Below are positions 15,931 through 51,808 of a stretch of DNA of 64,000 nt, one piece after another (position 1 is the stretch's first letter; every line of letters begins with the position of its first letter). The notes beneath the pieces were generated by a model. It made no database searches and had not been told where the DNA came from. It saw only the letters and a list, made by a program, of their open reading frames with translations. The DNA lies in the NCBI GenBank assembly GCA_902826615.1, contig CADEFN010000001.1, positions 744,001 to 808,000 of the forward strand, given 5' to 3'. Both the position numbers and the translations under genes were made by a program. The DNA is from an uncultured Gemmatimonadota bacterium (GTDB lineage: Bacteria; Gemmatimonadota; Gemmatimonadetes; Gemmatimonadales; Gemmatimonadaceae).

Positions 15931-15978
15931 TGTCACTGCCTCTGTTCCTAAGAGGCCTTCACTCGCACCCCAATTCTG

Positions 15979-16722
15979 ATGTGGCAGACTTCTCCGCTTC
16001 TAGTGGTGGAGAGCGGCAGCCTGAACGACTCGACTGTGAGAGTTGACCTGCGCGCTCTGTCACAGGAGAAATGGGTCCGCGTGCAAGTTCCTCAGGTCGG
16101 AACGGATACTCTCGTGAGGGTTTCGAATGGACTCTTGGTGGCGCAATTGGGGCTTTCTCGACGGAACGTTCGATCAGGTCCGGTGTGGATTTTCCTCGCA
16201 GACTCCAGTGGGAATCGACAGGCGTTGACGGTGCTGACGACGCAGGTCACTCCGTTCGGTCAAGGTCGCTCAGCTGACATCCTGCCTTGGGTGACCAACT
16301 TCTGCTCGCTCTTCATTGCAGGTGCCGCTGTTTGGCTCACCATGAAGAGGGATAGATTCGCGAAGAGAAGCGATGCGGAGCAGAGGAACGGTCAAGTGAC
16401 GGCGACCGTGCGCGCCCTTGAGCTGTATTGCATGCAGCTGGAGAAGGGGTGGGATACTGCGTGCCGGGTTCACGATGTAGCGCCGGTGAGGGTACCACTG
16501 GCTGGAGTCCCCGAAGTCGTGAAGTCGCTAGGGCCACTTGCGAATGAGGTAGCGAGCGACGTGACTTCCGCACTTCTCCAACTCAGCAAGGCGGGAGAGT
16601 TGATCTCCTTCGAGCTTGGCACCGAAGCTCACGATCCAGCGAAGACAAGAGCTGAGTTCTCAAAAGTTCTGAGAAGTCAGCTTTCGCGGATACGGAAAGC
16701 CGTTGCCGACCGCCAATACTGA
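15979..16722 (+). CDS. Single-pass membrane protein, partner of the upstream NTPase
   Basis: 247 aa, unrecognised. The N-terminal 95 residues look like a beta-sandwich (VRVDLRALSQEKWVRVQVPQ; GPVWIFLADSSGNRQALTV). One membrane helix follows near residues 102-121 (LPWVTNFCSLFIAGAAVWLT) with positive residues after it, and a helical cytoplasmic domain ends in KVLRSQLSRIRKAVADRQY. It lies 48 bp after the NTPase gene on the same strand and shares its A/T-richer codon use, so the two probably form one operon. The first residues may be mis-assigned because no Shine-Dalgarno site precedes the ATG. Confidence 0.7.
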   Translation: MWQTSPLLVVESGSLNDSTVRVDLRALSQEKWVRVQVPQVGTDTLVRVSNGLLVAQLGLSRRNVRSGPVWIFLADSSGNRQALTVLTTQVTPFGQGRSADILPWVTNFCSLFIAGAAVWLTMKRDRFAKRSDAEQRNGQVTATVRALELYCMQLEKGWDTACRVHDVAPVRVPLAGVPEVVKSLGPLANEVASDVTSALLQLSKAGELISFELGTEAHDPAKTRAEFSKVLRSQLSRIRKAVADRQY

Positions 16723-16812
16723 ATCACTCGGGTTCCCTCTGGGGAGTCGACGCCGTTCATTCCGATGCACCCGGAGTTGCGCTGAGGGACTAATCGGTGA
16801 CACATTGACCCC

Positions 16813-18105
16813 ATGGCGTCCGCCCGAACAAACACCAAGACCCCCCTTCCATGCAAGGAAGTCCGGGACCTCCGAACCCTAAGTGGGCTCTCTCAGTCCG
16901 GACTCGCTGCAGCTATCGGGAAATCGCCGCGTACCATCAAGCGGTGGGAAAGCGGTGACGTTGAGCCCGACGTCTTGGCCCTCCGGGAGATGCGCCGCCA
17001 ATTCGGTTCGGCCGAGCGGGCCGTTCGCGAGGAACCAGCTTTCCACTTCATCGACCTCTTCGCTGGCATCGGCGGATTACGGCTTGGATTCGAGGGAATT
17101 GGAGGGAGGTGTGTGTTCACCTCCGAATGGGACGCACACTCCCAACGCACCTACCGCGCCAATTTCGGCGAGCACGACATCGCAGGCGATATCACGCAGA
17201 TCCATGCACGCGATATCCCGTCGCACGACGTCCTCCTCGCCGGGTTCCCATGCCAGCCGTTCAGCATAGCTGGCGTCTCGAAGAAGAACTCGCTCGGTCG
17301 TAAACACGGCTTTGATTGTGACACGCAGGGCACCCTTTTCTTCGACGTCGAACGCATCATCGCAGAACACCGCCCCAAGGCGTTCCTGCTCGAGAACGTC
17401 AAGAATCTCCAGAGTCACGACGGCGGAAGGACCTTTGCCGTCATCATGCACACCCTGCAAGAGAAGCTCGGCTACACGGTCAGCTACAAGGTGCAGGATG
17501 CGCGGCCGTTTGTGCCACAGCATCGGGAGCGCATCTTCCTGGTTGGGCTTCGCGAAGACACGGGCTTTGATTGGAAGGACGTGCGCATTCCCGAACGGGA
17601 CGACTGGCCGAAGTTGAGCAACATTCTCCACCCCGAGGATGGCACTGAGGAGCCCGAGGATCGATTCACCGATGAGCGTGGCAAGGTGCTCAAGAAGTAC
17701 GTGCTGACCGAACACCTGTGGCAGTACCTGCAAAACTACGCCGCCAAGCACAAGGCAGCTGGCAATGGCTTCGGCTTCGGGTTGGTTGGGCCTTCGGACA
17801 CTGCGAGAACGTTGTCGGCGCGTTACTACAAGGACGGCTCTGAAATCCTCGTGCGGCGGAAGCGCGGTAGTCCCCGGCGCTTGACACCAAGGGAATGCGC
17901 CCGTCTGATGGGATTCGACAGAGGCGCTCGCCGCTGGAACATTCGGGTGTCCGACACACAGGCATACCGACAGTTCGGCAACTCCGTCGTGGTGCCTCTC
18001 GTCGAAGCGATCGCGCGCGCGATGTCACCGCACATCATCGGCTCACGGCAGGTCGTGAAGAGGATGAAGCAGCTCGCCCTCTTTGCCTCCGCTGCCGCAG
18101 ACTGA
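16813..18105 (+). CDS. DNA (cytosine-5) methyltransferase, Dcm/EcoRII-like, with HTH N-domain
   Basis: 430 aa. Residues 17-70 form an XRE-type helix-turn-helix (LSQSGLAAAIGKSPRTIKRW). The catalytic core shows FIDLFAGIGG (79-88), the nucleophile Cys147 in GFPCQPFS, Glu194 in LLENVKNL, QHRERIF, and the end motif RLTPRECARLMGF. The variable region has GNGFGFG and ARTLSARYYKDGSEIL, which closely follow Dcm and M.EcoRII-type enzymes, so a CCNGG-class target is an inference. The HTH may autoregulate the operon. The vsr gene follows after 2 bp, and the cognate nuclease gene converges from the other strand. Confidence 0.95.
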   Translation: MASARTNTKTPLPCKEVRDLRTLSGLSQSGLAAAIGKSPRTIKRWESGDVEPDVLALREMRRQFGSAERAVREEPAFHFIDLFAGIGGLRLGFEGIGGRCVFTSEWDAHSQRTYRANFGEHDIAGDITQIHARDIPSHDVLLAGFPCQPFSIAGVSKKNSLGRKHGFDCDTQGTLFFDVERIIAEHRPKAFLLENVKNLQSHDGGRTFAVIMHTLQEKLGYTVSYKVQDARPFVPQHRERIFLVGLREDTGFDWKDVRIPERDDWPKLSNILHPEDGTEEPEDRFTDERGKVLKKYVLTEHLWQYLQNYAAKHKAAGNGFGFGLVGPSDTARTLSARYYKDGSEILVRRKRGSPRRLTPRECARLMGFDRGARRWNIRVSDTQAYRQFGNSVVVPLVEAIARAMSPHIIGSRQVVKRMKQLALFASAAAD

Positions 18106-18107
18106 CG

Positions 18108-18527
18108 TTGGCGGATATCGTAGACAAGGCAACTCGGAGCCGGATGATGTCCGGCATACGGGGCGGCGACACAAAGCCGGAGCTGCTTGTCAGGAGTTTC
18201 CTTCACCGGGCGGGCCTTCGCTTTCGCGTGCAGGTGCGGTCGCTCCCGGGTCGCCCCGACATTGTGTTGCGGCGCCATCGTACCGTGGTGCTTGTGCATG
18301 GCTGCTTCTGGCACCGGCACCCAGGTTGTCGCTACGCAACCACACCCGCGACCAATCGCGCTTTCTGGCGCATCAAGTTTGCGGAGAACGTGGCTCGCGA
18401 CACGCTCAAGCTGCGCGAACTGCGGAAGCTGGGGTGGAGACCCCTTGTCGTCTGGGAGTGTCAGTTGTCGCCGAAGCGGCTTGCACTGCTGGTTCACCGC
18501 ATCACCCGGCTGCCGCGCACGCATTGA
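18108..18527 (+). CDS. vsr: Very short patch repair endonuclease Vsr
   Basis: 139 aa from a TTG start 2 bp after the methylase stop. This start gives ADIVDKATRSRMMSGIRG, the normal Vsr N-terminus, so the longer frame from 17895 is rejected. Key residues fall at the same positions as in E. coli Vsr: Asp51 (PGRPDIVL), His64 and His69 (VHGCFWHRH), plus VWECQL near the end. It nicks T:G mismatches that arise from deamination of 5-methylcytosine, protecting the methylated sites. Its last 26 bp overlap the convergent nuclease gene. Confidence 0.95.
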   Translation: MADIVDKATRSRMMSGIRGGDTKPELLVRSFLHRAGLRFRVQVRSLPGRPDIVLRRHRTVVLVHGCFWHRHPGCRYATTPATNRAFWRIKFAENVARDTLKLRELRKLGWRPLVVWECQLSPKRLALLVHRITRLPRTH

Positions 18528-19848
18528 CGCTTTCCAGCGTGTGGTACAATCGCGCGATCTGGCTCGACTTCACCCGAAACTGATTTCGGCGTTTGATCAC
18601 CGGTCGCTCTGGATACTGCTCGGCTTTGACCGCGGGGTCGAGGTACACGGCACCGTCGACGATGGCGCTGAGAAAACGCTCGAACGACGTGCCGGTGCCG
18701 AGTCTGACCGACGCACCGAAGCGATACTGTCGTTGTGGCGCCTCTCTGCTTTCCGAGGGTACATACACGGCGAGTGCATGCTTCTTTCGCCAGTGTGCGA
18801 GGAGCCCATCGAACTTCCAGAGCGCGGCAGTCCTGTCCTGTGGGTCAACGAGGCAGATTCCGCCTGACGAGTCGGTGATGCGAGCCGTCGTCAGGTCATA
18901 CCCCTGCAGTTCCATGCGCAGCGAGGTAGTCCTGTCGACACGTTCGTTGCGATAAATGCCACCGAAGTTCAGCCGGTCGGCTCGCCCTTTCTTGTCAGGG
19001 TATCCGTAGCGCTCGAGGAAGGGCAGCACTCCTTCCTGGGCGTACATGCCGCCATTGGGCTCCGGCGTCATGAGGGTAATGGGACTGTCTTGCGGGCGCT
19101 CGAGTTTCCCGACGCCATGCTGCTTCACTTCCCAGCCGAGAAAGTCGGGAGCTGCGGTCCCGTTCGGAGTGATGCCGAGTTCAGCTTCCAGAGTGTAGCC
19201 ACCACAGTTTGGCGCTCTGCAGTCGAGCGAGTCACCGCGCGAGTCGAGCCGGCGCGAGGCAATCCATCCGCGATTGGCTATGTCACACAGAGCTCTGAGT
19301 AGCCTGACTCGTTCGTCGCGGGCTGTCACGGCGCCCATTGGCACGCGTTTGAAAACGCCGACGCTCTCCAGGCCCTCGAGGGCAAGGCACTCGCTAGCGA
19401 GAGGAGTGTTCTCCCTCGCGGCGGCGCCAATCACCCGCCCATCCGGGGTGACGCCGAGGAGGAGCACGCGACCTTCAGTGCGTGTCGTGCCGAGGGCGTC
19501 GGATGGCCGGTGGCTCTTGTCGACGCCAGTGAGGTAGCCGGAGAATCGTACTTCTGGGTACTGCGGGTAGAGAATGAGTTTGGCTTCCGGCGCGGGCCGT
19601 GTGGAGCCATCGGATCCGAGCCAGGAGAGATCGAGGGGGGCGCGGAAGAACGTTTCTGGGTGCTCGCTGGAAGTGGTGCCCGCCACGAGGGACTTCGAGG
19701 GGATGGTATTGAGGACTCCGAAGTCACCCCCGAGGTAGGGTTGGTTCTTGCTGTTGTCGTTTGGAGCCAGGGCCTTGAGGTAGAGGCGATTGACGCCATG
19801 GGCTGCCATGGCGGCCCTGATTGATTCGAGACTCCGAGTGTCAAGCAT
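18502..19848 (-). CDS. Type II restriction endonuclease, MvaI/BcnI family
   Basis: 448 aa. The C-terminal half has the family signature GGYTLEAELGITPNG followed by PDFLGWEVKQH, placing the PD-(D/E)XK residues at Asp235, Glu240 and Lys242. MvaI and BcnI cut CCWGG and CCSGG, which agrees with a Dcm-like partner methylase. The N-terminal ~190 residues form an additional domain not present in the short MvaI/BcnI enzymes (about 240 aa), so this is a longer variant; its role is unknown. It is convergent with dcm-vsr, with 26 bp of tail overlap. The start is at 19848; no ribosome-binding site is obvious. Confidence 0.9.
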   Translation of the reverse strand: MLDTRSLESIRAAMAAHGVNRLYLKALAPNDNSKNQPYLGGDFGVLNTIPSKSLVAGTTSSEHPETFFRAPLDLSWLGSDGSTRPAPEAKLILYPQYPEVRFSGYLTGVDKSHRPSDALGTTRTEGRVLLLGVTPDGRVIGAAARENTPLASECLALEGLESVGVFKRVPMGAVTARDERVRLLRALCDIANRGWIASRRLDSRGDSLDCRAPNCGGYTLEAELGITPNGTAAPDFLGWEVKQHGVGKLERPQDSPITLMTPEPNGGMYAQEGVLPFLERYGYPDKKGRADRLNFGGIYRNERVDRTTSLRMELQGYDLTTARITDSSGGICLVDPQDRTAALWKFDGLLAHWRKKHALAVYVPSESREAPQRQYRFGASVRLGTGTSFERFLSAIVDGAVYLDPAVKAEQYPERPVIKRRNQFRVKSSQIARLYHTLESVNACAAAG

Positions 19849-20055: not shown

Positions 20056-21078
20056 ATGGGTCGTCCCGTTTCCAAGTCATTTCGCCCGGACTCAGCGCTG
20101 CTTCGACGAATGAAGAAGCGTGACCTGCTTCCAGGTGAGATCGCCGATTTGCTAAAGCTATCCGATTGGTGCCGTCTCGCCGCGTACAGCAGCATGTCCG
20201 GTGACACTGCAACAAGTGTCGCTCGTGAAAACGTGGACTGGATCAAGTTCAGGCAGTTCACCACCCGCAAGTCTGCACGACTGCTATCGCACAAGGGGGT
20301 CCAGTGGGTTTCGTACGGATATCGGACAGCTCGAGGGATCTGGAGTGACACTCCCAGCATCGTGGTCTTCGTGCGCAAGAAGTGGCCGGTCGTCGCACGC
20401 TCAGCACTTCCAGCGAGTGAGGTGCTACCCCGCTTCTTGCGCGATGAGCGTGGTCGTCGTGTCGCGGTCGACGTTGTTGAAGTCGGCAAACTGAGACAAA
20501 CCGCACAGCTGGCCGTTGGCGATCGTATCGACCCTGGCCTTAGCTACGGAACTCTCGGCTTCTTTGCTCGCGAGCGCACGAGCGGCGGTCCTGTTGCTGT
20601 GACGGCGGCTCACGTGCTGAAGGAGTTCAAGGCGGGCGACACAATCCTGGTGCAGGAGCGTGGGAGCCACCAGAAAAGGGTCCTTGGTGTACGCCTCATG
20701 AGCAGTCCAGAAGCGGATATCGTGGCTGTGAGCGCAGCTGGACACCAGAGCGTCAATGCCCTTCCCGGCAGCCCACCGTTGCGTGGGATCCGTGACGTTT
20801 CGCCGCATGATGTGGGAGAGTCCTTTCGCTCATTCGGCTCCACGACGGCAGAGGTTGTAAACGGGGTCATGGAATCGCCCGGCGCGTGCGGCTCAAACCT
20901 CCCAATACGCCATCCGATTGTAGTTCGCATGCCCGTCAGTCCCGGCGATTCGGGGGCTCTCCTGGTCGACACGTACAACTACGCGGCCGGGCTTCTCCAC
21001 GGCTACTGCACCGCCGACCCCGGTCTCGCGGTGTTTACTCCTCTCAAGGCGGGCCTCTCCGCTATAGGGTGCATATGA
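20056..21078 (+). CDS. Trypsin-like serine protease (S1 fold)
   Basis: 340 aa. The start at 20056 is preferred because AAAGGAAC lies just upstream; an in-frame start at 19969 has no such site. A chymotrypsin-fold triad is visible: His186 in AVTAAHVL, Asp221 in EADIVAV and Ser299 in SPGDSGALLVD. No signal peptide is seen. The first ~150 residues form a separate domain (GVQWVSYGYRTARGIWSDTPSIVVFV) that may be a partner-binding module. The stop codon overlaps the next start (ATGA). Trypsin-like proteases of this kind occur in NTP-dependent conflict systems together with caspases and CHAT proteins; a role here is inferred only from context. Confidence 0.85.
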   Translation: MGRPVSKSFRPDSALLRRMKKRDLLPGEIADLLKLSDWCRLAAYSSMSGDTATSVARENVDWIKFRQFTTRKSARLLSHKGVQWVSYGYRTARGIWSDTPSIVVFVRKKWPVVARSALPASEVLPRFLRDERGRRVAVDVVEVGKLRQTAQLAVGDRIDPGLSYGTLGFFARERTSGGPVAVTAAHVLKEFKAGDTILVQERGSHQKRVLGVRLMSSPEADIVAVSAAGHQSVNALPGSPPLRGIRDVSPHDVGESFRSFGSTTAEVVNGVMESPGACGSNLPIRHPIVVRMPVSPGDSGALLVDTYNYAAGLLHGYCTADPGLAVFTPLKAGLSAIGCI

Positions 21079-22550
21079 AACGAACACTGATCATGCTGAC
21101 GCTCCTGACTTTCACGGCTTCGGTTGGAGTAGCACAAGATACCGCAGCACCTGCACGAGCTGTTGCTAGTGGAATAGTGACTGTCACCATTACCAAAGAG
21201 GGCAACGATTTCAAGCTGACCCCTAGTCACGATTCGCTTGCAGTGACCGAAGCCGCGAAGGTGAATATCACTTGGAGCAGGGGCCTTGGTGTAAGCAAGG
21301 CACAATTGCTCGTCGGATTTGATGGAGTCCTGAACCGTCTTGGGGATACGACCACAACGACGGACTCGACGCACATCACCGCCACATGGGAACCTCCCCT
21401 AGAGGAGGTCCGCAAGGCCAAAGTACTCGCGGTACAACTCGACTCCTTGCCCAACACCCGCGCAAGGATCGTTCTAAAGCTGTCCCCCACTCAAGACCAG
21501 GTACCAGCATGCCGGTACCCCGCGGGGATCGACTCCGCGATCAAGAGTGCGAACGATCTCAACAAGTCACATGGCTGGTTTCAGGGATGGAGCACACCGA
21601 AGGCGGCCGGATTGGTCATGGATGCTGATGGCCGCATACTCGCCGCGCCTCACGACGGCATCAGGGAAGATCAGAGCGTTCATGCCTGGCTAGTGCCAAG
21701 TCCGACGCGGGCGCTCACGAGCGAGATGGTTGCACGATCGACCCCGACTCGCACGAGTGGCGCCATTCAGATAGCGGGTGAGCCCCCCGTGCCGCCAGCA
21801 ATCCCTACGGGGTCTGGGGCGTCCCCGAGTGCCTGTATGGGGCCACAAGCAATCAGCTACTTCGCTCCAGGCCCTGCAACGATCACCCTCACGCGTGCTT
21901 CAACTGAGAAGGACAAGACTGATCGAGTAAAGGTCGCCGAGTTTGCCGTTCGCGTTCGCAAGCTTTACCACGGTCACATCACTGCGGGCTTTGCGAGGAC
22001 CAGAGTCATCGACCCGCAGTTCGCGCTCACAACAACGGCGGGCAAGACCGGTGGCGACAACCCAAAGGACACCACCTACACAGTACTGCGTGATGGGGCA
22101 GACTCCAGCGAGAGGTTCGTGCCGGTGGTGTTCTTGACCGGGTTCTTTCCGTCACCTGCCGATCTTGATGGTCCGCACGCGTATCGCGACCTCAGTTGGT
22201 GGATCTCTCCCTCGATCGGATTCAACCCCAGCCGATTGACAGACGAGATATTTGTCGGTGGCACCACTCATCTAGGGCGCATTGTTACGCTCAACTACGG
22301 GTGGCACTTCGCCAGGGGCAAGACCCTGAGAAACGCTTTGGCGGACACCGCAACGCCGTACAAGGGTCCCGCCGACAACCTTCCGACTCGGTCAACGACC
22401 CGTCGGGCAAGCTTCGTGGCGTTCGCGGTTGATGGAGCGGCAGCCGGGACATGGCTGTCGGCCGGGGTCAAGAACATCCTCGGCGGACTGCTGGCGCCCG
22501 TCACCAAAGCCGAGCCAGAACCCGTCAAGGAAGAAAAGGACAAACCATGA
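21075..22550 (+). CDS. Secreted protein of unknown function, trypsin operon
   Basis: 491 aa starting at the ATG overlapping the protease stop. A signal peptide is clear (MKRTLIMLTLLTFTASVGVAQ). Residues 30-150 look like beta-sandwich strands (VTVTITKEGNDFKLTPSHDSL; RARIVLKLSP); the end contains FVAFAVDGAAAGTWLSAGVKNILGG, which resembles a barrel or membrane-associated segment. The tail is Lys/Glu-rich. No family is recognised. The 4-bp overlaps at both ends show that it is made together with the protease and the lipoprotein. Confidence 0.75.
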   Translation: MKRTLIMLTLLTFTASVGVAQDTAAPARAVASGIVTVTITKEGNDFKLTPSHDSLAVTEAAKVNITWSRGLGVSKAQLLVGFDGVLNRLGDTTTTTDSTHITATWEPPLEEVRKAKVLAVQLDSLPNTRARIVLKLSPTQDQVPACRYPAGIDSAIKSANDLNKSHGWFQGWSTPKAAGLVMDADGRILAAPHDGIREDQSVHAWLVPSPTRALTSEMVARSTPTRTSGAIQIAGEPPVPPAIPTGSGASPSACMGPQAISYFAPGPATITLTRASTEKDKTDRVKVAEFAVRVRKLYHGHITAGFARTRVIDPQFALTTTAGKTGGDNPKDTTYTVLRDGADSSERFVPVVFLTGFFPSPADLDGPHAYRDLSWWISPSIGFNPSRLTDEIFVGGTTHLGRIVTLNYGWHFARGKTLRNALADTATPYKGPADNLPTRSTTRRASFVAFAVDGAAAGTWLSAGVKNILGGLLAPVTKAEPEPVKEEKDKP

Positions 22551-23371
22551 ACTGCGAACTCTGGAACTGTCTTCCCGTCAACCAAAAAGAGTCGGGTCGG
22601 CGAACTCGGTATCCCATGGGTTGGGCGTTCTTGGCCTCTCTGTCGATCGCAGGATGTGCGCCACTCTCTCTTCCTGACGTGGTCCCTGCAACTGATTTGC
22701 CCCAGTTTGCGTCGGCGCAGAACGAAGTCCAGATATCTCAGAGCTTCAACGAGGTCGACCCAAGCTGGGTTGTGGGTGCCCTGGTCCATCTCAGCTCCGG
22801 TAAGGTCCTGGCCCTGGACTCCTACCTGAAGCCCGGGACGAAACCCTCGGTGGCCCCGCTAACCGATGTTGTGTTCAAGGACTTTGTCGAGAATTCAGTG
22901 GCGAGCAACGCCGCATGGCTGGATTTCGCCAAGGCACAGGTGAGCAACAACACGCGGGTTGAGGTCTCGGTCACAAAGACAATGAAGGTTTCGATCGAGA
23001 ACACGAGCGTGGATCGGGAGAGACTCGTCAGTCAATTGAAAGCAAGACGCATAGCTCGCCGTGAGGACTACGGGGTGATCATCGGCTACGTTAGCTACAT
23101 GCTCTCTGCCAGCTACTTTCGGGACCAGAGTGCTGAGGGGAGTGCTGCGGGCTACGGCGCAAAGATTGGAGGCAATTGGTACAGCAAAGTTGGGTCCTCG
23201 GCCGCTGCCCATCGGATCGTGGCAATCTGGGCGCCGCTACCCTTCGTAATCGACCGGACTCGCGATACGCTGGTCACGGACCTCACCGAGGCGGCTGCGG
23301 ACGCTATTGAGCGACACTCGTTGGTGGTGTCCCAGCTGAAGGTCATGACCGCACTAAGAATACAGAACTGA
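22547..23371 (+). CDS. Lipoprotein of unknown function, trypsin operon
   Basis: 274 aa from the ATG that overlaps the previous stop (ATGA); an internal ATG at 22616 would give a more conventional lipoprotein signal, MGWAFLASLSIAGC, with the lipobox Cys next to APLSLP. The mature part is mixed alpha/beta: FNEVDPSWVVGALVHLSSGKVLAL, EVSVTKTMKVSIENTSVDRERLV, and a late hydrophobic strand AHRIVAIWAPLPFVID. Unrecognised. It is the third gene of a tightly coupled unit with the trypsin-like protease, and it converges on the caspase gene with 135 bp between. Confidence 0.75.
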   Translation: MNCELWNCLPVNQKESGRRTRYPMGWAFLASLSIAGCAPLSLPDVVPATDLPQFASAQNEVQISQSFNEVDPSWVVGALVHLSSGKVLALDSYLKPGTKPSVAPLTDVVFKDFVENSVASNAAWLDFAKAQVSNNTRVEVSVTKTMKVSIENTSVDRERLVSQLKARRIARREDYGVIIGYVSYMLSASYFRDQSAEGSAAGYGAKIGGNWYSKVGSSAAAHRIVAIWAPLPFVIDRTRDTLVTDLTEAAADAIERHSLVVSQLKVMTALRIQN

Positions 23372-23506
23372 TTGTGAAAGGCAGGTCCCGAAGCCTCCGA
23401 GGATACAGACGGTCATATTCGGTGGATGCGCAGCAAACTCAGTGAGTAGTCAGGCGCACCATCGCTGTGCGCCGTCCCGCCGTAGTCAACGGTTCGGCAC
23501 CAAAGG

Positions 23507-24307
23507 TCAAAACGGCATCCGTCCGTTCGCCCAGGAGAGCGAAAGTGGGCTGCAGAACGGTGTCTGAACGCGCGGTGTCCGCAGGTTCACCTCGTGGGCA
23601 AGGTCTGCGAACGGAAGCATTGGCTGCTTCTCCCACACCTGCAGAAGGGCATCTGTGAACCAGCCCAGTCTGGGACCCTCAAACGCAAGCTCGGACTCTC
23701 CGCACGCGGCGATCAGCTCCACGTTCGCCCGCAGGATCTGCTGCCGTTCGCCAGGCCTCAGCCGAGGTTGAAGGTCGCAGCTCGACGCGAGCGCTCGGTA
23801 AGCCTCCAGAGCGGTCGTCGGAGAAAAACCGCGCGCAGGCGCCCCGGTGGGCGGAAGCACGCGTGGGCTCTCCCAGACGTCGGCTGCCCCACTGTGGCAG
23901 CAGTCAGCGATGACCAGGACCTCCACTCCCGGCTGGAATTCGGCAAGTGCGATGTAGAGCGCGTGGTCGATGATCTCGCCATCGTAGAGGCACCAGGTCT
24001 CGTTCTTGCCATCCCTTTCGGACCAGGAAGGATCGGGTACCTGCGAACCATGTCCGGCAAAGAACAGCACGAACACGTCGCCGGGACTTGAATAGGTCCG
24101 CGCGGCATGTGCCAGGTTGTGCAAAAGCAAGTCTCGCGTTGCGCGGTCACCAAGGACCGGCCCGCCTGACTGAATGTTGAAGTCCTTCGCGCGCAGAAAG
24201 TCCGCTACTTCCCACGCATCGCGCTCCGCTGCGCGAAGCTGCGGAGGCGCGACGCCGTAAAGTCCCGGATTTACGGCGTTAACACCAAGAGTCAGTGCTC
24301 CACGCAT
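23507..24307 (-). CDS. Caspase-fold cysteine peptidase (C14/metacaspase-like)
   Basis: 266 aa. The catalytic dyad is visible: His86 in FFAGHGSQ and Cys137 in VIADCCHSGA, with the usual preceding strands (MRGALTLGVNAV, DVFVLFFAGH, EVLVIADCC). The protein is little more than the p20-p10 core and has no signal peptide, so it should act in the cytoplasm. It is the last gene of a run read from the ECF sigma factor at about 30.1 kb through the CHAT gene, and lies 12 bp after the unknown 301-aa protein. Bacterial caspases in such settings are often activated by an upstream sensor. Confidence 0.92.
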   Translation of the reverse strand: MRGALTLGVNAVNPGLYGVAPPQLRAAERDAWEVADFLRAKDFNIQSGGPVLGDRATRDLLLHNLAHAARTYSSPGDVFVLFFAGHGSQVPDPSWSERDGKNETWCLYDGEIIDHALYIALAEFQPGVEVLVIADCCHSGAADVWESPRVLPPTGAPARGFSPTTALEAYRALASSCDLQPRLRPGERQQILRANVELIAACGESELAFEGPRLGWFTDALLQVWEKQPMLPFADLAHEVNLRTPRVQTPFCSPLSLSWANGRMPF

Positions 24308-24319
24308 TGGTCAGCCTGC

Positions 24320-25225
24320 TCACTTCGCGTAGGCAGCCGGGAAGCATCCGGCTGAAGAACCCGGGTTACGGGCGCGGAGCGCGCCAACCTCGTGCTGTTT
24401 CACATACGGGGCCTTCAGCTCCTCCCAGTGAGTCGCAGGGTCGACATTGGTCATCCAGTACAGCCACTTGAAATCGTGATCGGCGATCGAGCCATCGCTT
24501 GCGGACTCGGCGCGCGCGTCTTCAAATCCTGCGTCGTCGAAGCCTGACAGCTGCGCCACAGAGGCCCACTCGTCGTCGTAGTGGTAAAGGAACGCCTTTG
24601 GCCTGTTCGCATCGAGCACAAGCGAAGTCACCGTACCCTCCTCTGTCGCGATCGAAATCGTCGCCGTCGGTGCATTCGAACGCCACGCCACGTGAGCGGC
24701 AGGGCCCGCGTGCGGATCGAGCTCCCCCTTAGCGTGGTCTTGTGCGGTGCGCCAGGGACCCTGCTGTTCATTGGCAGACATTGCTCCACCGGAAATGCGG
24801 ACCAGAGACGTCACGTTTGACGTCGTCTTGCTCCCATTCCTCCCTGTTGCGACACGGTACTCCACAAGCCGGACGTCCGCCGTTTTCAGTTTAACCCGCG
24901 ACCGTGAAGCTTTCGCCTGCTTGGCCTTGATGGCTGCCAGCGTCGCCTTGATCGCTTCGTGAAAGTCCTGCACACGCGCAAAGGAGGACTGCAGCACGCA
25001 GTCGCCACCGAAGGCGTCAGCCACTTGAACAGTGGTTCCATCGAGATTGTGACGCGAGACGATGTTTCCCAATGAGTCGAGAACCACCAGCCGGGCGTAG
25101 TGAAGGGGCAACTTCCCCTTCGACTCGCGGGTATTTGGCATGGCATACGCATCCAGCACACGGGTGTTGTTGCGCTCCACCGTGGTGAACAGCCCGACCC
25201 CGCGAAAATTGACCTCGACGCTCAC
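24320..25225 (-). CDS. Unknown protein between the CHAT and caspase genes
   Basis: 301 aa from a GTG start with a strong site GGAGGGGAGAC directly before it; a longer frame to 25273 lacks this. The sequence begins MSVEVNFRGVGLFTTVERNN and ends with a region rich in aromatic residues (DHDFKWLYWMTNVDPATHWEE). No signal peptide, membrane helix or family is recognised. Its place, 63 bp after the CHAT gene and 12 bp before the caspase gene, suggests a regulator, adaptor or substrate of the caspase. Confidence 0.75.
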   Translation of the reverse strand: MSVEVNFRGVGLFTTVERNNTRVLDAYAMPNTRESKGKLPLHYARLVVLDSLGNIVSRHNLDGTTVQVADAFGGDCVLQSSFARVQDFHEAIKATLAAIKAKQAKASRSRVKLKTADVRLVEYRVATGRNGSKTTSNVTSLVRISGGAMSANEQQGPWRTAQDHAKGELDPHAGPAAHVAWRSNAPTATISIATEEGTVTSLVLDANRPKAFLYHYDDEWASVAQLSGFDDAGFEDARAESASDGSIADHDFKWLYWMTNVDPATHWEELKAPYVKQHEVGALRARNPGSSAGCFPAAYAK

Positions 25226-25288
25226 GTCTCCCCTCCAGTGTTGGGTTCGCCTGGAGGCAAGACGGCCATGCATGGCGGAATTCCCCAG

Positions 25289-28200
25289 CTAGCGTGTATC
25301 GAGTCTCACTGCAGCCCACGTTTGCGGGCCGATACTCCCGGAGCGCCACACTTGCCGCTGAACCTGCGCAAGCGCCTCCGCAGGAGTGGCACCCTCTAGC
25401 AGGTAACCATGAAAAGCCGCCATGAAGGGCTCCGCACTACGATCATCAAGCTCCCAGAGAGTGCTCACAACCGCGCGCGTCCCCGCATCAAGGAAGGCGC
25501 GTGGCAGTCCCTGCAAGTCAGTTACTCGTCGAGAAATGCTGCTGGTGGTGGCACACGCCGAAAGGACCGCGAGAGAGAGGCTTCGCAGGTCAAGCCGCCT
25601 GATGTCGCGCGCCGAGACCACATTGCTATCGCGTTCACCACCTGAAGTGGCCATGACGAAGTAAGACCGATCCGCCCCGGCGGGCGAGATGCGGGCGTGG
25701 CCGGCGAAGTGCAGCAACTCCGTCGTGGGCAGTGACTGGAGCATCCATCGGCGCGTTGCCTCGCGGCCCCGGGTTGCCGCTACGGCCCCGTACGCTGACG
25801 CTACCCGATCACTCTCAGCATCAGCATGTTGAAGTGGTCGCAACTCGGGGAACAGCTGCTGGTCATGCGACGGGGCACCGACGACGAGCACCCGACTGGC
25901 GGCGGCCCGGGGCGTGGGTGCGTCCCGGCGAGTCAATCCCGCAAGCGTCTGGACAAAGCGCAAAGAGTGCCGTTGGACCAGCGGGCCGCCAGCGATCGGC
26001 AGGGCCGCAAAGGGAAGGGCACCAAGCGCTCCATCCGAGAGGAGCACAAGTTGGTCGCCGTCGGAGGAGGCCGAGAGCGCATCCCCGATGAGGCTCTGCG
26101 CGAACGCGGCGGTCGCAGCATCATCCCCCCGAAGACCCGGACGGATGCCTCGAACAGTGTAACTCACCAGCGAACGGATCGAATCACTGCTTGTCTGGTG
26201 TACTCGCACCATGAGACGCTTCCCGCGCTTTGTCCAGACGACGAGCTGCTCGGGGAGCGCCGCGAACGCCACCGCGGTCTGACCTGCGGGAACCGGGGTG
26301 CTCAGAAAAGATTCGGCATCCTGCTGCGACTCACCGAGCAGCTGAGAGTACGCCCGCAGGGCTCCCAGGGTATCCTGCGCGGCGACGCGAACCACGATGC
26401 GCTGGGCCATAAGCTCTCGTCGAAGGGCCATCTGCAGCATGCGCGAGCGTTCGTCCGCCCCCGCGTCCGCAACCGCTACCTCATCGGCCAGCGAGTCAAG
26501 CTGGACTACCCCTGCGGCAGTGTCACCGCGCACGATAGACAATCTGGCCATTTGCCAGCGGACATCGGTCATCACCCAGCGGCTGCCTTGTGACGCAAAG
26601 AATGCCCGGCCGCGCTCAAGTCGGGCGAGGGCATCCGTGGCCTCGGAGTTCCGTGCAAGGCGTGCCGCTGCCAGTGCGTAGTCAGCTTCGGCGCGCGCTC
26701 GAAGACCGGGGCCAAGCCCCGCGGTGAACTCACTGGCGGCGCGCAACACGGCTCGTGACGAATCCGGCTGTCCGGTGGCTTCGAGCGCAGCGGAAAGCGC
26801 GAGGAGCGATTCGAGGAGGTCTCCTGGACGTCCGGTTTCCCGCGCCACAGTGGTCGCTTCCTGCTGCATGGCCAGCGCCGCATGCGGGAGACGCAAATCG
26901 GTCAGCATTTGCGCGAGTGCATCGAGAGGCTCCCAGCGGCTGACGGCGGGAATCGGTACACGCCGGTGCTGAAGGCTTGCCAGGGCGGCATCCATCGCGT
27001 CCGTGTCCCGACCGAGCTGCGCGAGCACCAGAGCCCGCTGCGAAAGAGTGCGGGCGCGATTGTTCATCTCGCCGATGCGTTCGAAGGTCTGTGCCGCCTC
27101 GAGGTATGCTCGTTCTGATGCGGTCAGTACTCGAGGGACTTCGGAGAGATAGAGCGCTCCAAGCCACGTGGCGCGACCCGCAAAGGCAAAGTTGTGCGCA
27201 CCCCTGGCCCGTGCAGCCAGTTGCTCAAACGTCCGAGAGCTGATCTCCCGCCTCCCCATACGCATTACGGTGAAGGCGTGCAGAAGCTCACTCGAGAACG
27301 AGAGTGTGGGAGCAATGGGTCGCAGTCGCCTGATTGCCGCCTCGAAGTATGAGGCAGCGGAATCGTGTTGCTGTGCCCCGAGAAAACGCGACCCGGTTGT
27401 CGCCTCGAGGAGACCCCTCGCGAACGCGTCGGGTGAGACGAATGAGGCTCTCTCCGCCTCCTGTCCCAGGTGCATGACCGTGGAATCGCCCGAGTACCCG
27501 GCAATGATGGATCCGATCTCGAGCACTCGGCTCCGGGCCAGATCCGCGAGCCGCCGGTCATCATCTCGGACACTCCGCGCCCAGAGCACGAGGAGCGAAT
27601 CCATGACCAATTCTCTCGCCCGCTGAGGCTCCCTCTTGACCGAATCCGCGAAGTGCGAGTAAGGCAAGCCACCACCAGCACTCAAACGTTTGAGCGCATC
27701 AAGTCGTCTCCTTCCCTCCGCGACCCAGCCACCATCACCTCCGGCCCGCGCCAGGAAGTCTTCCCATGCAGTGGCTCCGGCCGTGACAAGGCCGATCTGC
27801 TCCCGGATAAGGGCCCTGTTGAATGCCACTTGGTCCCCGGCCCCGGGCATGCGGCTGGCATGCTCGATGGCGTCAAGCGCAAGAAACACATCGCTCGCCG
27901 CGCGGGTGTGAGATGCACGAATAAGGTAGGCAACCGCAAGGTCGTTCATCAGATGTGCGTCACCAGGCAGCAGCTGCGCGACCTGCTCAAGGCGTTGCAC
28001 CGCCAGCTCCACTATCGACTCGCGTTTGTCAGCCAACAGCAGGTCGATCAAGGCGCCTGCCCACAATTGCCCGGCACCGTAGGAGCCCTCGCGGCCCGCG
28101 AGAGACGAAGCGATCTCGCCGAGCCTGGAGGCGAGGAAATTCGAGCTGAACGCGGCGCAGCCAACACTGAAGGCGGTCGTGTCCGGGTTTGCGCACGCAG

Positions 28201-28402
28201 TGAAGCGGATACTGCCATGCAAGCGCGCGGTGAAGGGACGAGTCCCCGCGACTGTCGCCGCTACTTCGTCAGCAGGCGATGGGGCTGGCGTGCGTTTGTA
28301 TTCCTGGCATGCCCCTGCGGCAACGCAAAGGAGGAGCAGCTTGCGCAGAATCGGCCTAACGGCTGCCAGCCGAGAACGCACGCTCGAGAATTGCGCCATC
28401 AT
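25289..28402 (-). CDS. CHAT-domain protein with lipoprotein-like N-terminus and TPR-like helices
   Basis: 1037 aa. The start region reads LRKLLLLCVAAGACQEYKR, a hydrophobic stretch ending in a possible lipobox Cys, so an envelope anchor is likely. Residues ~80-720 are helical repeats of TPR type (alanine-rich). The C-terminal CHAT domain, a caspase-clan protease fold, keeps His902 (LLHFAGHA) and Cys950 (VLSACATT). The gene starts inside the end of the preceding gene (47-bp overlap). The neighbouring ECF sigma factor, subtilase and caspase suggest a proteolytic signalling chain. Confidence 0.88.
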   Translation of the reverse strand: MMAQFSSVRSRLAAVRPILRKLLLLCVAAGACQEYKRTPAPSPADEVAATVAGTRPFTARLHGSIRFTACANPDTTAFSVGCAAFSSNFLASRLGEIASSLAGREGSYGAGQLWAGALIDLLLADKRESIVELAVQRLEQVAQLLPGDAHLMNDLAVAYLIRASHTRAASDVFLALDAIEHASRMPGAGDQVAFNRALIREQIGLVTAGATAWEDFLARAGGDGGWVAEGRRRLDALKRLSAGGGLPYSHFADSVKREPQRARELVMDSLLVLWARSVRDDDRRLADLARSRVLEIGSIIAGYSGDSTVMHLGQEAERASFVSPDAFARGLLEATTGSRFLGAQQHDSAASYFEAAIRRLRPIAPTLSFSSELLHAFTVMRMGRREISSRTFEQLAARARGAHNFAFAGRATWLGALYLSEVPRVLTASERAYLEAAQTFERIGEMNNRARTLSQRALVLAQLGRDTDAMDAALASLQHRRVPIPAVSRWEPLDALAQMLTDLRLPHAALAMQQEATTVARETGRPGDLLESLLALSAALEATGQPDSSRAVLRAASEFTAGLGPGLRARAEADYALAAARLARNSEATDALARLERGRAFFASQGSRWVMTDVRWQMARLSIVRGDTAAGVVQLDSLADEVAVADAGADERSRMLQMALRRELMAQRIVVRVAAQDTLGALRAYSQLLGESQQDAESFLSTPVPAGQTAVAFAALPEQLVVWTKRGKRLMVRVHQTSSDSIRSLVSYTVRGIRPGLRGDDAATAAFAQSLIGDALSASSDGDQLVLLSDGALGALPFAALPIAGGPLVQRHSLRFVQTLAGLTRRDAPTPRAAASRVLVVGAPSHDQQLFPELRPLQHADAESDRVASAYGAVAATRGREATRRWMLQSLPTTELLHFAGHARISPAGADRSYFVMATSGGERDSNVVSARDIRRLDLRSLSLAVLSACATTSSISRRVTDLQGLPRAFLDAGTRAVVSTLWELDDRSAEPFMAAFHGYLLEGATPAEALAQVQRQVWRSGSIGPQTWAAVRLDTR

Positions 28403-29309
28403 CGACCGGCGACCAGCGGTCGCCGGAGAGGCGAACCATCAAGGTGTCGAGTGCAGCCCGGATGGTCGCGAGCTGTTCACGTTCGCCGCCGCCAGACATG
28501 GGTAGCCCGGCCAGAATCTCCTTGAGTTGCTCGTACGCCTTTCGGCGCACTGCGGGCCGTTCCATGGCACCTGCCAGGCTGGCTCCGCGGACCGTTTCCA
28601 TCCACACGCCGACATCGTACCACGAGGGGTGTCCGGCTATCGCCCGGAGTTGACTGCTGAAAGACGGATCCCGGAATGTCCTGCCTGCGCTGTCGGAGCG
28701 GGCTCGTACCGCTAGGGCAGAGCCTCCGGGGCGACGCTCGGCAAGTGTCGCAAGTTCATCAACCGCGGAAGATCTCAAGGTCTCATCCTGCATCGCGGCT
28801 GCGCGCTGTGCGAGTGTGGCGTACACCCCCATCCGCAACGCAGAGAGTGAGAGAATGGCATCGTCGCTTGAACCCCGGGTTGCCCCCCATCCATGCATCA
28901 CCATGGAGTCGCGGAGCGAGGCAGACACGCTCCCGTTGCCACGACTATTCGTGAGTGGGCTGGCAGGGTTGAGCTCGGGCGTAGGATCGCGGCGCGCCAC
29001 CAGTAGTAGCAGGACTGCGGCGACGGCTGAACCAGCGGCACCATACCAGATTGGTCTAGACCTGATGGCGCGGCCGGGGAGAGGAGGCATGGCCTGCAGC
29101 GACCCACCATCACCTGGTCTCCCCGCATCACTTCCATCCGTCTCAGCGCGGATAGCCGAGAGCAGCACTTCACGGTCTGCAGGCGAATCAGCGAGTATGC
29201 TGAGCACGTCCTCACGTATCTCGGTCGGCAACTTGCCCGACAGAAAGTCGGCGAGCGTGGCCGCGTCGATGCGAGGTCGATCCAGCGATCCGGACGGCAT
29301 TGAGGTCAT
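28356..29309 (-). CDS. Single-pass membrane protein, likely anti-sigma factor
   Basis: 317 aa from the ATG that overlaps the sigma-factor stop (ATGA, 29306-29309). The N-terminal 55 residues (IDAATLADFLSGKLPTEIREDVLSILADSP) resemble a zinc-free anti-sigma domain; one membrane helix lies at residues 88-105 (WYGAAGSAVAAVLLLLVA) and the rest is helical and probably periplasmic. Its position directly after an ECF-type sigma factor supports the anti-sigma role. The classical HX3CX2C motif is absent. Confidence 0.75.
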   Translation of the reverse strand: MTSMPSGSLDRPRIDAATLADFLSGKLPTEIREDVLSILADSPADREVLLSAIRAETDGSDAGRPGDGGSLQAMPPLPGRAIRSRPIWYGAAGSAVAAVLLLLVARRDPTPELNPASPLTNSRGNGSVSASLRDSMVMHGWGATRGSSDDAILSLSALRMGVYATLAQRAAAMQDETLRSSAVDELATLAERRPGGSALAVRARSDSAGRTFRDPSFSSQLRAIAGHPSWYDVGVWMETVRGASLAGAMERPAVRRKAYEQLKEILAGLPMSGGGEREQLATIRAALDTLMVRLSGDRWSPVDDGAILERAFSAGSR

Positions 29310-30100
29310 GGTGTTTGTCCGTCCGAGTGCAGGTCGATCACGGACCTGACATCTTCCGGCCGGATACCAGCAGCCGTCAGGCATGCGCGAAGTTGATCGA
29401 GGATCCTGTCAAGGCGACGGTAGAGTGGTTTTGACTCCACACCAAGAGCACGCGCGATCTCCGGCATTTTCGCGCCATCTTGAAACCGCATTCTCGCGAT
29501 GACCTGGTCTTCGAGGGGCAGACTGGAGAAGGCACGACGCAATGCGTCATCGACCTTCGAGCGCAGCTCCGAAGATTCAAGGATGTCGGCCGGACTTCCG
29601 TGAGCAGCGATACCGCTGGCGTTCGAAACGTCGACGTCGCGATCGCGAACGCGACGTGGCAATTCACCAATGATTGCACGGAGTTCGCGTTCGGTAAGCG
29701 AGGAATCGCGCGAGCGCATCACCTGAATGGCCTGCTGCGCTGTCATTCCGTCGCGAATCGTGAGCTGTTCAAGCTGGACGGCAACAGCGCCAACTCGACG
29801 CGCCACAGCTGACGGACGCCACCGCCCCCACACATGGTTGCGGTAATCAATGAGCAGGTGCGCAAGGGTCACTCGGAGGTAGGAAACGTCAGTGAAGCGC
29901 TCACCCGCTACGCGCACGGCGGCATAGTCGTCGCGAATGAGGTGTTCCTGTGCCCACGCGGCGAACTCCTCGCCGTCCTCGGGCAGGAGTCCCGAGGTAC
30001 GCAAGAGTCGATCAAGGACAAGCCACACCGTCGGCAGCGACGATGTGAACACCGATTCAGCCCGGCTACGCTCCTCTGGGGTCGCGGCGCGTCCGTGCAC
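29306..30100 (-). CDS. ECF-type RNA polymerase sigma factor
   Basis: About 264 aa if translation starts at the GTG at 30100; another GTG at 30052 is possible, and the open frame to 30349 is not protein-like. Sigma region 2 lies in LVLDRLLRTSGLLPEDGEEF to RVTLAHLLIDYRNHVWGRW. Region 4 is AFSSLPLEDQVIARMRFQDG with the helix-turn-helix KMPEIARALGVESKPLYRRL. It heads a same-strand run with its anti-sigma-like protein, the CHAT gene and the caspase gene, and is divergent from the subtilase gene. It probably controls the locus. Confidence 0.85.
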   Translation of the reverse strand: MHGRAATPEERSRAESVFTSSLPTVWLVLDRLLRTSGLLPEDGEEFAAWAQEHLIRDDYAAVRVAGERFTDVSYLRVTLAHLLIDYRNHVWGRWRPSAVARRVGAVAVQLEQLTIRDGMTAQQAIQVMRSRDSSLTERELRAIIGELPRRVRDRDVDVSNASGIAAHGSPADILESSELRSKVDDALRRAFSSLPLEDQVIARMRFQDGAKMPEIARALGVESKPLYRRLDRILDQLRACLTAAGIRPEDVRSVIDLHSDGQTP

Positions 30101-30419
30101 TCTTTGGCCCCGGCCTGAGTGAAAGCCGGAACCTACTTCGTCGGGATGTGGGTTGGCTAGCGCTGCCCCACTTCCTCCGTCTGTACTAACAAGTCGCAGT
30201 TTTCGCACGTGGCTCGTAGTCCCCCCGGGGCACACCGGCATCCAAAGCATAGACGGCCATCCGCGCCCCGATTCACACGTGTGGGCGCGAGCTCGCGTCA
30301 CAGTCCAGCATGCGACCGCCACGCCACCAGGGCATTCGGGGAAAGTCACTGGGCCTGTCCGTCATCCGCCTTCGCAAAGGAAAACTCCACACGAAACTCA
30401 AGAGACAAGGAGGATGGAC
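30101..30419. other. Divergent promoter region between sigma and subtilase genes
   Basis: 319 bp without a gene. It holds a perfect 10-bp palindrome CACACGTGTG (30274-30283) and, at its end, the strong ribosome-binding site AAGGAGG (30407-30413) of the subtilase. No confident -35/-10 pair was recognised. Confidence 0.5.
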
Positions 30420-32081
30420 ATGACGAAACGCAACATCATCATCGAGCTCAAACACACCGCGGACCTCGCGTCGGCCGCCGTTGCTGCCTCACCCGAAGCG
30501 ACGCTGGACACCGCCCTCGTACCGAAGATCGCGGGCCTTACGATCGACAAGTCCTTCGCCCCAGCCTCGCTGCCTTCCACCACGCCGACGTCGGCGATGG
30601 ACGCTCCATACGTCTCGGGTTGGAAGCTCGATGTGTCCCTTGATCCGAAGGACGCGACCTACATCGTGCGAGGCGAAGCCGACGAGTCGAAGATCGAGGA
30701 GATTGCGGCTCACAAGTCAGTCGTCGGTGTCTATGCCGATGTTGCGATCGAGGAGGCGATCATCTGTCCGGGAAGTCCACCCATGGGGACTCATCTCGAT
30801 GTAGAGCGGTTACTCTGCGTTCCAGCCCTCGGCCGTGCCGGGATGAATGGCACCGGAGTGCTTGTGGCGATTGTGGACACCGGGATCAATCAGGCCCACC
30901 TGGCAGCGCGAGGTCGCCCCATCACCGTTGATGTTGCGCGAAGCTGGGTGCCCGCGGCAGGCATGACGCCCGGGGCGGCCCCGGTCAGTCACGGAACGAT
31001 GTGTGCCTTTGACGCCGCTATCGCTGCCCCTCGGGCAACCTTTCTCGACATCCAGCTGCTTCGGTCCAGCGCCGTGGGCTTCACAGGTCTTCTGTCGGAC
31101 GCAGTCCGAGCGTATCGGCACCTGATCAACGTCATGACTGCTCCGCGGCGCATCGGCGAGGCGCGATCGTTGGTAGTCAACAACAGCTGGGGCATGTTCC
31201 ATCCGAGCTGGGATTTGCCGGTGGGCCACCCCGGTAACTACTCCGACAATCCCAACCACCCGTTCAATCGCATTGTTGGTGCGCTTGAACGTGAGGGGGC
31301 CGACATTCTCTTCGCAGCGGGCAACTGCGGTGCCAACTGCCCGGATGGTCGGTGCCAGAATGTCACGGCTAACGCCATATACGGCGCCAACGGACACCCC
31401 TCGGTTCTCACCATAGGTGGCGTCGACATCTCGAACACACGAGTGGGCTACTCGAGCCAGGGTCCGGGACGGTTGTCGCGTAACAAACCGGATCTCTGCG
31501 GCTACACACACTTTGCTGGATCAGGTGTCTACGCGGCAGATGGTGGTACTTCGGCGGCAACCCCTGTCGTGGCCGGAGTGGTGGCCGCTTTGCGCACGAA
31601 ACTCCCGTTCATCCCCGGCAATCCGGCGGCGACGCCCGCGGCGATTCGGGCGCGCCTGCGCACAACCGCTCGTGACCTGGGCACGGCGGGGTTTGATTTC
31701 GACCACGGTTTCGGCGTGGTGGGTGCATGCGCGCTCGTTCCACGGACACCTCTCCCGAGCATCTGCCAGCGGTTCCCCAAACTATGCAGCGAGCGCCCAT
31801 GGGACTTCTGCAGACGTTTCCCGCATCTCTGTCGGCCTCCGTTTCCGCAGCCGGGCGCTCCGCGGCCGGGCTTCGATCTTACCGGGGGGGATGAGTGGGA
31901 ACCCGCTGTTCCGGCCGACTTCGATGAGGCGGGAGATGGGCTGGAGATGGTTTCGGAGGCGTGGTATGCGGGGTACGATACTGGGACGCAGGCCTCGGTT
32001 GCGAAAAAGCCGAAGACTGGTGGGTGCGGGTGCGGCTGTGACGGAGAAAAACGCGGTGCTGCCAGGACGTCGCAAGAGTAA
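30420..32081 (+). CDS. Subtilisin-like serine protease (S8) with I9-type propeptide and Cys-rich tail
   Basis: 553 aa. The ATG at 30420 is chosen because AAGGAGG lies 6 bp upstream; the ATG at 30414 directly abuts that site. Residues 5-115 look like an inhibitor I9 propeptide, ending VVGVYADVAIEE. The triad is complete: Asp153 (AIVDTGIN), His191 (SHGTMCA), Ser378 (GGTSAATPVVAG), with Asn302 (AAGNCG) for the oxyanion hole. The C-terminal extension has two copies of C-x-RFP-x-LC and then GGCGCGC. No classical signal peptide is present. It is divergent from the sigma-CHAT-caspase run. Confidence 0.93.
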   Translation: MTKRNIIIELKHTADLASAAVAASPEATLDTALVPKIAGLTIDKSFAPASLPSTTPTSAMDAPYVSGWKLDVSLDPKDATYIVRGEADESKIEEIAAHKSVVGVYADVAIEEAIICPGSPPMGTHLDVERLLCVPALGRAGMNGTGVLVAIVDTGINQAHLAARGRPITVDVARSWVPAAGMTPGAAPVSHGTMCAFDAAIAAPRATFLDIQLLRSSAVGFTGLLSDAVRAYRHLINVMTAPRRIGEARSLVVNNSWGMFHPSWDLPVGHPGNYSDNPNHPFNRIVGALEREGADILFAAGNCGANCPDGRCQNVTANAIYGANGHPSVLTIGGVDISNTRVGYSSQGPGRLSRNKPDLCGYTHFAGSGVYAADGGTSAATPVVAGVVAALRTKLPFIPGNPAATPAAIRARLRTTARDLGTAGFDFDHGFGVVGACALVPRTPLPSICQRFPKLCSERPWDFCRRFPHLCRPPFPQPGAPRPGFDLTGGDEWEPAVPADFDEAGDGLEMVSEAWYAGYDTGTQASVAKKPKTGGCGCGCDGEKRGAARTSQE

Positions 32082-32165
32082 GTAAAGCGGTGCGCGCTTC
32101 GCCCGCGGCCATGCCGCGGGCGCGGCGCTACCAACGGCTCGGCCATTCAGCAACGGACAACACAG

Positions 32166-32450
32166 ATGTATAGCCTGATGTTCCAGTTCAGACATCGCGG
32201 TGACCCGCCAACCCTGGACTCGGTTCGCTCGGCCTACGGCTTGGTCGGGGGAGATGTGGATGAGGCATTTGGTGTAGTCGCAACTGACCAGGCTGAGGGT
32301 CTTTACGTGGTGCTGCTCACACCTCTCGCGGCAAGGCAAGTAGAGGCAGCGCTGGCGCGGTCGCCGCGGGATCCTGCGGTTGGAGTCTTTTCGAACCCAC
32401 GCGTCGAGCCGATGGGCGATGGTGGCACAGGGTCATTCGGTCCGGTGTGA
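32166..32450 (+). CDS. Small protein resembling a stand-alone I9 propeptide/inhibitor
   Basis: 94 aa, 84 bp after the subtilase. Predicted elements run beta (YSLMFQFR), alpha (LDSVRSAYGL), beta (EAFGVVATD), beta (LYVVLLTP), alpha (ARQVEAALARS), beta (AVGVFSNPRVEP), the order of the I9 fold. Its end, AVGVFSNPRVEP, aligns with VVGVYADVAIEE, the last strand of the neighbouring protease's own propeptide. This points to a soluble inhibitor or trans-acting foldase for the subtilase; it is an inference from pattern and position. The ATG at 32166 has a weak upstream site (GGACAACACAG). Confidence 0.65.
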   Translation: MYSLMFQFRHRGDPPTLDSVRSAYGLVGGDVDEAFGVVATDQAEGLYVVLLTPLAARQVEAALARSPRDPAVGVFSNPRVEPMGDGGTGSFGPV

Positions 32451-36688: not shown

Positions 36689-36747
36689 ATAGGAGGGCGT
36701 TGATCCCGTAGTTGGCCTCGTGTCCCCAGACCGCGACCGATCCGAAG

Positions 36748-48289: not shown

Positions 48290-48302
48290 GTACGGGTGGA
48301 GC

Positions 48303-48884: not shown

Positions 48885-48970
48885 CTCGCGGCTCCGAAAA
48901 AGGGATGACGGGCCAGACGGCCCATTCCCCGGGTGATACGTTCGGAGCGTGCCAGCGTCTCACCTGCCCT

Positions 48971-51673: not shown

Positions 51674-51692
51674 AGGTGGAGAAGATAGGAAG

Positions 51693-51712: not shown

Positions 51713-51808
51713 GACGTGCTGCTTACGGTGACAGGTATCACCCACATTTGGTGGGACGGCGCGACTCAGGCACAACGACCGGGATCCGGGGGTAGACCCG
51801 GCAACCCA

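Follow-up and report, generated by a model that had tools for sequence, protein, structure and literature searches.

A predicted sigma-factor module with an exported TPR-CHAT protease, a caspase and an undescribed protein family in Gemmatimonadota

Gene content of the locus

The window analysed here (64,000 nucleotides of contig CADEFN010000001.1 from an uncultured, soil-type Gemmatimonadota bacterium) carries, between 20056 and 32450, a group of protease genes and their partners in which all catalytic residues are intact, and which forms three separate units rather than one system (Table 1). The largest is a minus-strand run encoding an extracytoplasmic function (ECF) sigma factor, an anti-sigma factor with one transmembrane (TM) helix, a TPR-CHAT protease, a protein that we call U and a caspase. 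This run and a trypsin operon face each other, and a subtilase gene with its small partner diverges from the ECF sigma gene. Within the run, the ECF and anti-sigma genes meet in an ATGA overlap, the anti-sigma and CHAT genes overlap by 46 bp and U is separated from the caspase by 12 bp. A preliminary description had gathered all of these genes into one multi-protease system; its open reading frames, strands and overlaps are as we find them, and the catalytic residues of the trypsin, CHAT and caspase proteins are all in place, those of CHAT and of the C14 domain being conserved in relatives as well. What stands of the proposed system is the sigma-CHAT-caspase module, to which the subtilase is linked via a predicted promoter shared with other modules; the trypsin operon, rare and lacking a promoter site, does not belong to it.

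Table 1. Features of the locus, with window coordinates and the basis of each assignment
Feature	Coordinates	Strand	Basis and remarks
Unit 1	23507-30100	-	ECF sigma, one-TM anti-sigma, lipoprotein TPR-CHAT, U, caspase; single overlapping operon
Caspase-family C14, metacaspase-like, predicted cytoplasmic protease	23507-24307	-	PF00656 2.7e-14; FAGHGS, ADCCHS
U protein, 301 residues	24320-25225	-	GTG start, no signal peptide; beta-rich family; invariant Gly9, His42, Cys294
TPR-CHAT protease, predicted lipoprotein	25289-28402	-	PF12770 1.9e-47; HFAGHA, SACATT; lipobox AGAC
Putative membrane anti-sigma, one TM helix	28356-29309	-	Position, N-terminal anti-sigma-like stretch, TM
ECF sigma factor	29306-30100	-	TIGR02937 7.5e-9, below curated cut-off; GTG start at 30100 assumed, uncertain
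Unit 2	30414-32450	+	Subtilase and 94-residue protein
Predicted ECF-type promoter	30339-30363	+	GGGAAA-N12-GTCCGTC; 50 bp before subtilase ATG
Subtilase (S8), predicted sigma target	30414-32081	+	PF00082 3e-24; no signal peptide
94-residue protein paired with subtilase	32166-32450	+	Possible inhibitor or chaperone; no Pfam match
Unit 3	20056-23371	+	Operon of trypsin-like protease, secreted protein, lipoprotein
Trypsin-like protease (NAL1-like), judged outside module	20056-21078	+	His186/Asp221/Ser299; Pfam NAL1_N 1.6e-6
Secreted protein of trypsin operon, outside module	21075-22550	+	ATGA overlap with trypsin gene
Lipoprotein of trypsin operon, outside module	22547-23371	+	ATGA overlap; lipobox IAGC

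The window ECF sigma factor shares 32-44% identity with its relatives in module loci. Its neighbour, the anti-sigma-like protein, matches no family in a Pfam scan; the homologous counterpart of its anti-sigma stretch is the zf-HC2 domain of the Acidobacteriota fusions described below. Among relatives of the CHAT protein the catalytic His is kept in 46/46 and the Cys in 44/46, and every complete TPR-CHAT copy has an N-terminal anchor. From this lipobox or TM helix the protease is predicted to be anchored outside the cytoplasm, and the anti-sigma factor is predicted to have a cytoplasmic N-terminal part, one TM helix and an outer domain. No export signal is present in the sigma factor, the caspase or (in Gemmatimonadota) U. 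Domain scans reveal no NTPase among the module genes; an AAA protein (13744-15930) lies beyond restriction-modification genes, and a padloc scan matched nothing to the sigma, anti-sigma, CHAT or U proteins. The earlier suggestion that CHAT or the anti-sigma factor takes the sensing role of an NTPase is consistent with this topology, in which TPR-CHAT is exported, the anti-sigma sits in the membrane and the caspase is cytoplasmic, an arrangement that fits envelope-to-cytoplasm signalling.

The C14 His and Cys are kept in 24/24 caspases compared, and the nearest solved structure to the window protein is GSU0716 (3bij, 1.5e-35). In a tree of 24 caspases, the ten adjacent to U, that of the window among them, form one branch (support 97/99) together with that of L121, a locus of the same kind, and other caspases of the same phylum fall outside it. 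A second caspase in the window (55315-58116) is fused behind Amidase_2 (PF01510 2e-9, PF00656 2.1e-28), giving a peptidoglycan amidase-caspase fusion, and lies on a different caspase branch.

Recurrence of the module

Parts were counted up to 7 kb from the ECF gene. Seventeen loci were retrieved solely by their ECF similarity; among them an anti-sigma gene is present in 14, CHAT in 11, U in 10 (plus 2 weak) and a caspase in 4; the U E-values in this count are flattered by a model that includes many of these members, and an earlier eight-seed model found most of them too. All searches together yield 34 distinct ECF loci (anti-sigma in 30, CHAT in 25, U in 22 plus 2 weak, caspase in 11), a set partly selected by CHAT similarity, which leaves the 17 loci as the fairer sample. 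One Gemmatimonadota contig (L122, JAQBPY010000340.1) has the order ECF, anti-sigma, CHAT, U and C14 identical to that of the window. Longimicrobium-type loci (L104-L109, L132 and L133) place the ECF and anti-sigma genes in one direction and U, caspase and a small CHAT in the opposite one, with TPR-CHAT facing. Two Acidobacteriota loci, L135 and L127, carry after the ECF gene a single chain of zf-HC2, TM helix, TPRs and CHAT (zf-HC2 1.9e-7 and 5.4e-8; CHAT 2e-50 and 5.8e-29, respectively). No other observation speaks as strongly for anti-sigma and CHAT working jointly across the membrane as this fusion, which suggests that they do. Judged by gene neighbourhoods, the sigma/anti-sigma/CHAT/U/caspase set is a real recurring module whose genes are passed on jointly and whose association goes well beyond chance, and the preliminary description was right to read the run as one unit.

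The window genome has a second module (L059, contig 3), in which ECF, anti-sigma, CHAT and U are followed by a Swt1-like HEPN protein (PF18731 5.5e-13). In L105-L108 a single-domain CHAT gene, lacking TPR and signal peptide, follows the caspase; near that of L108 lie several short peptides with leaders of the K-K-L-S-L-K type, resembling lanthipeptide precursors.

The U protein family

A single-sequence scan of the genome contigs with the 301-residue protein found no relatives, and U appeared to be an orphan; the family was recognised by aligning the genes beside CHAT in related loci. Its members, encoded directly after CHAT in relatives, are 270-360 residues long and share an opening I-x-F-x-G-L-x-L-F-V ... 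V-L-M-P and a Cys near the C terminus; many also have a D-F-K-W-L-Y stretch late in the chain, and Gly, His, Pro and Cys are invariant in an alignment of 26 members. No match was found to Pfam or to PDB sequences. AlphaFold2 models the window protein poorly (predicted local distance difference test, pLDDT, 56.5) and a Longimicrobium-type relative from L132 confidently as a beta-rich protein (pLDDT 78.5, predicted template modelling score 0.85); the latter model has no match among PDB structures, which does not by itself prove a new fold. On these comparisons U is a previously undescribed protein family without a recognised fold match. Its distribution is patchy (11/298 genomes of the phylum). 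Proteins bearing a twin-arginine translocation (Tat) signal that follow the Acidobacteriota fusions are weakly similar to U (profile E 2e-4 and 0.008; profile comparison E 5e-4, probability 31 percent).

The gene after U may be a caspase, a subtilase (L057, L066 twice, L102) or, in L059, the Swt1-like HEPN. Because U usually adjoins CHAT while the following gene varies, U is probably a partner, adaptor or substrate joining the protease arm to an effector; it may act as substrate, adaptor or inhibitor.

A shared predicted promoter element and the subtilase pair

When bipartite words were first enumerated in the sequence preceding ECF genes, none exceeded shuffles. K-mer enrichment before the ECF genes then revealed an element in two parts, GG[AG]A[AT]-N11..13-GTCCG[TA]C (GGRAW form). 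ECF promoters have a GGAA motif, about 16 bases and a CGTC motif, and the element is of such form. Scanning spacers of 4-25 across 39 module loci returned 4, 18 and 12 matches at 11, 12 and 13 and at most two at any other spacer, counts that include overlapping registers and correspond to about 20 distinct sites; the reversed pattern had no match at 11-13 and the 14 control loci had one. Sites in sense orientation are placed some 27-97 bp ahead of anti-sigma genes (L057, L058, L063 and L131), U genes (L105, L106, L107 and L133), a kinase gene of L066 and the window subtilase, and since the element was derived from ECF-upstream regions, the independent sites are those before anti-sigma, kinase and other genes. 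Some sites fall inside coding sequence, probably by chance. Across the window genome a narrower pattern has about ten exact matches against four for the control, and among these ten or so the subtilase site is the only intergenic one just before a gene start. Through this predicted promoter, common to other modules, the subtilase is tied to the module.

Relatives of the subtilase outside modules share 42-48% identity with it, and in L158 and L159 small proteins related to the 94-residue protein adjoin the same subtilase. Subtilase and small protein were considered as a fixed part of the module and rejected, the convergent pair occurring elsewhere without one; the window seems to have placed a conserved pair under the module promoter. 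The label 'I9-like', given earlier to the 94-residue protein, finds no support in Pfam. In other families (L155-L160) the subtilase gene and that of its small protein converge as a pair, which may encode a protease and its inhibitor.

Trypsin operon and window surroundings

The trypsin-like protein scores below the cut-off for Trypsin_2 (2.2e-4). Matches to it occur in 3/298 phylum genomes, its own included, and adjacency to the module was seen in neither of the other two, one of whose contigs is short (4.1 kb). The secreted protein has no relative in the 298 genomes; the one encoded next to the L138 trypsin shows no significant similarity to it (best E 0.11). No promoter element precedes the operon, which lies at the edge of a lower-G+C stretch (0.57-0.60, 14-22 kb) that also holds a restriction-modification cluster. 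The operon was rejected as a module part, being almost strain-specific, without the module promoter and with an association not beyond chance. The preliminary description had staked its system on adjacency outside this strain: the caspase run does recur elsewhere, and among the 298 genomes the trypsin operon was seen beside it here only.

Low-G+C positions 13744-19848 encode an AAA-type NTPase (weak mads_8 match), a 247-residue protein, a C5-methylase with HTH, Vsr and a MvaI/BcnI restriction endonuclease; by this predicted content the region is a restriction-modification island adjoining the trypsin operon. At 47143-51823 there are one more ECF sigma gene and a second gene for a TPR-CHAT (PF12770 3.3e-53), with no U nearby, and a further pair of sigma and one-TM anti-sigma-like genes (36712-38180) is found just past a gene-poor stretch at 32.5-36.5 kb.

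Discussion

We read the minus-strand run as a sigma-factor module in which TPR-CHAT would cut the anti-sigma factor and the freed sigma factor would induce cytoplasmic proteases or other effectors, and put the probability of this at about 0.55. Binding of a periplasmic ligand or of a damage signal to the TPR part would activate the CHAT protease, which would cleave the outer part of the anti-sigma factor in a site-1-like cut; housekeeping proteases of the RseP/ClpXP type would make the further cuts, and the released sigma factor would transcribe the anti-sigma gene and a regulon comprising the subtilase here and the U/caspase/small-CHAT operon in Longimicrobium-type loci. The output may be cell death, defence or repair. 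Tentatively, this can be extended to a caspase pathway under transcriptional control from the envelope, the extracytoplasmic TPR-CHAT triggering a sigma switch that would arm a cytoplasmic caspase or subtilase through U as adaptor.

Several observations weigh against this proposal. The fusion at L127 (10791-14084) lacks the CHAT His and Cys, so that a non-catalytic role exists at least there, and the ECF relatives of L060, L128 and L134 are without anti-sigma and CHAT. No exact promoter site precedes the window's own ECF gene or the L059 module, and recognition of the element by the module sigma factor is something we infer from co-occurrence. The evidence on the compartment of U points both ways, with a Tat-type signal in the weakly homologous Acidobacteriota proteins and none in Gemmatimonadota.

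The L127 fusion also bears on a different role for CHAT, that of a ligand-sensing scaffold which acts on the anti-sigma factor by binding while housekeeping proteases do the cutting; a zf-HC2-TM-TPR-CHAT chain could work through conformational change, yet the near-universal retention of the catalytic Cys and His makes this improbable. Rather unlikely, too, is that ECF, anti-sigma, CHAT and U make up an ordinary envelope-stress regulator, with caspase and subtilase as regulatory or quality-control proteases of its regulon and no role in conflict or cell death. Exported CHAT and membrane anti-sigma do resemble RseA/DegS logic, regulon members vary by lineage and include a LuxR-type regulator (L131) and the L066 kinase, and padloc matched none of the four proteins; the alternation of caspase, subtilase and HEPN after U looks, against this, like exchangeable effectors, and U is patchily distributed. 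The joint cascade of trypsin operon, CHAT, caspase and subtilase proposed earlier has in its favour that the operons are neighbours facing each other. We consider it very improbable: the trypsin is nearly strain-specific and stands apart from the module in other genomes, its secreted partner lacks relatives, the 14-22 kb stretch has lower G+C and the operon has no sigma promoter.

The closest design to the proposed sigma-factor module is the side arm of Craspase, type III-E CRISPR, with Csx29 (TPR-CHAT), Csx30 (anti-sigma) and CASP-sigma (PMC10028731). Each combines a TPR-CHAT gene with one for the inhibitor of an ECF-like sigma factor and leaves release of that sigma factor to a protease (for the module, inhibition and release are both putative). 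The module differs in its CHAT, predicted to be exported and membrane-anchored, in an anti-sigma with a TM helix and in the genes that come next, U and a caspase or subtilase; no CRISPR-like array was found at 10-45 kb of the window and no Cas7-11-type neighbour among its scanned proteins, which sets it apart from Craspase. As in RseA/DegS/RseP-RpoE, a one-TM anti-sigma would restrain an ECF sigma factor and the candidate trigger is an extracytoplasmic protease, but the candidate site-1 protease is a TPR-CHAT of the same operon, whereas the DegS type is a PDZ-trypsin, and effector proteases lie within the module. ECF54 genes have CHAT, subtilase and carboxypeptidase in their context and are taken to lack an anti-sigma factor, on a model from Geodermatophilus (PMC8999054). 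CHAT and subtilase genes near the ECF gene are a shared trait; unlike ECF54 as described, the module has an anti-sigma factor, separate or fused to CHAT. In the EACC1 and EACC2 systems a caspase has a constant partner, and EACC2 neighbourhoods include an ECF sigma factor and a TPR protein (PMC7159879, PMC8195603); the module differs in its separate U, exported TPR-CHAT and TM anti-sigma. Nor is it of EACC1 type: the caspase scores 34 bits with model NF047832 (cut-off 140), and U has no TM helix. The NTPase in the operon that marks VMAP/iSTAND/NTPase conflict systems is absent from the module genes. A search of open-licence papers found no description of this combination.

We regard the module as a candidate new form of ECF signalling controlled by proteolysis, which brings with it a protein family not described before. 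Little is known of what most bacterial caspases and CHAT proteases do. The module offers a testable circuit that joins a sensor-protease to its likely target, the anti-sigma factor, and adds a predicted promoter and a few effector proteases. It would be a CRISPR-independent parallel to the Csx29-Csx30-sigma arm, and would bear on the origin of that arm.

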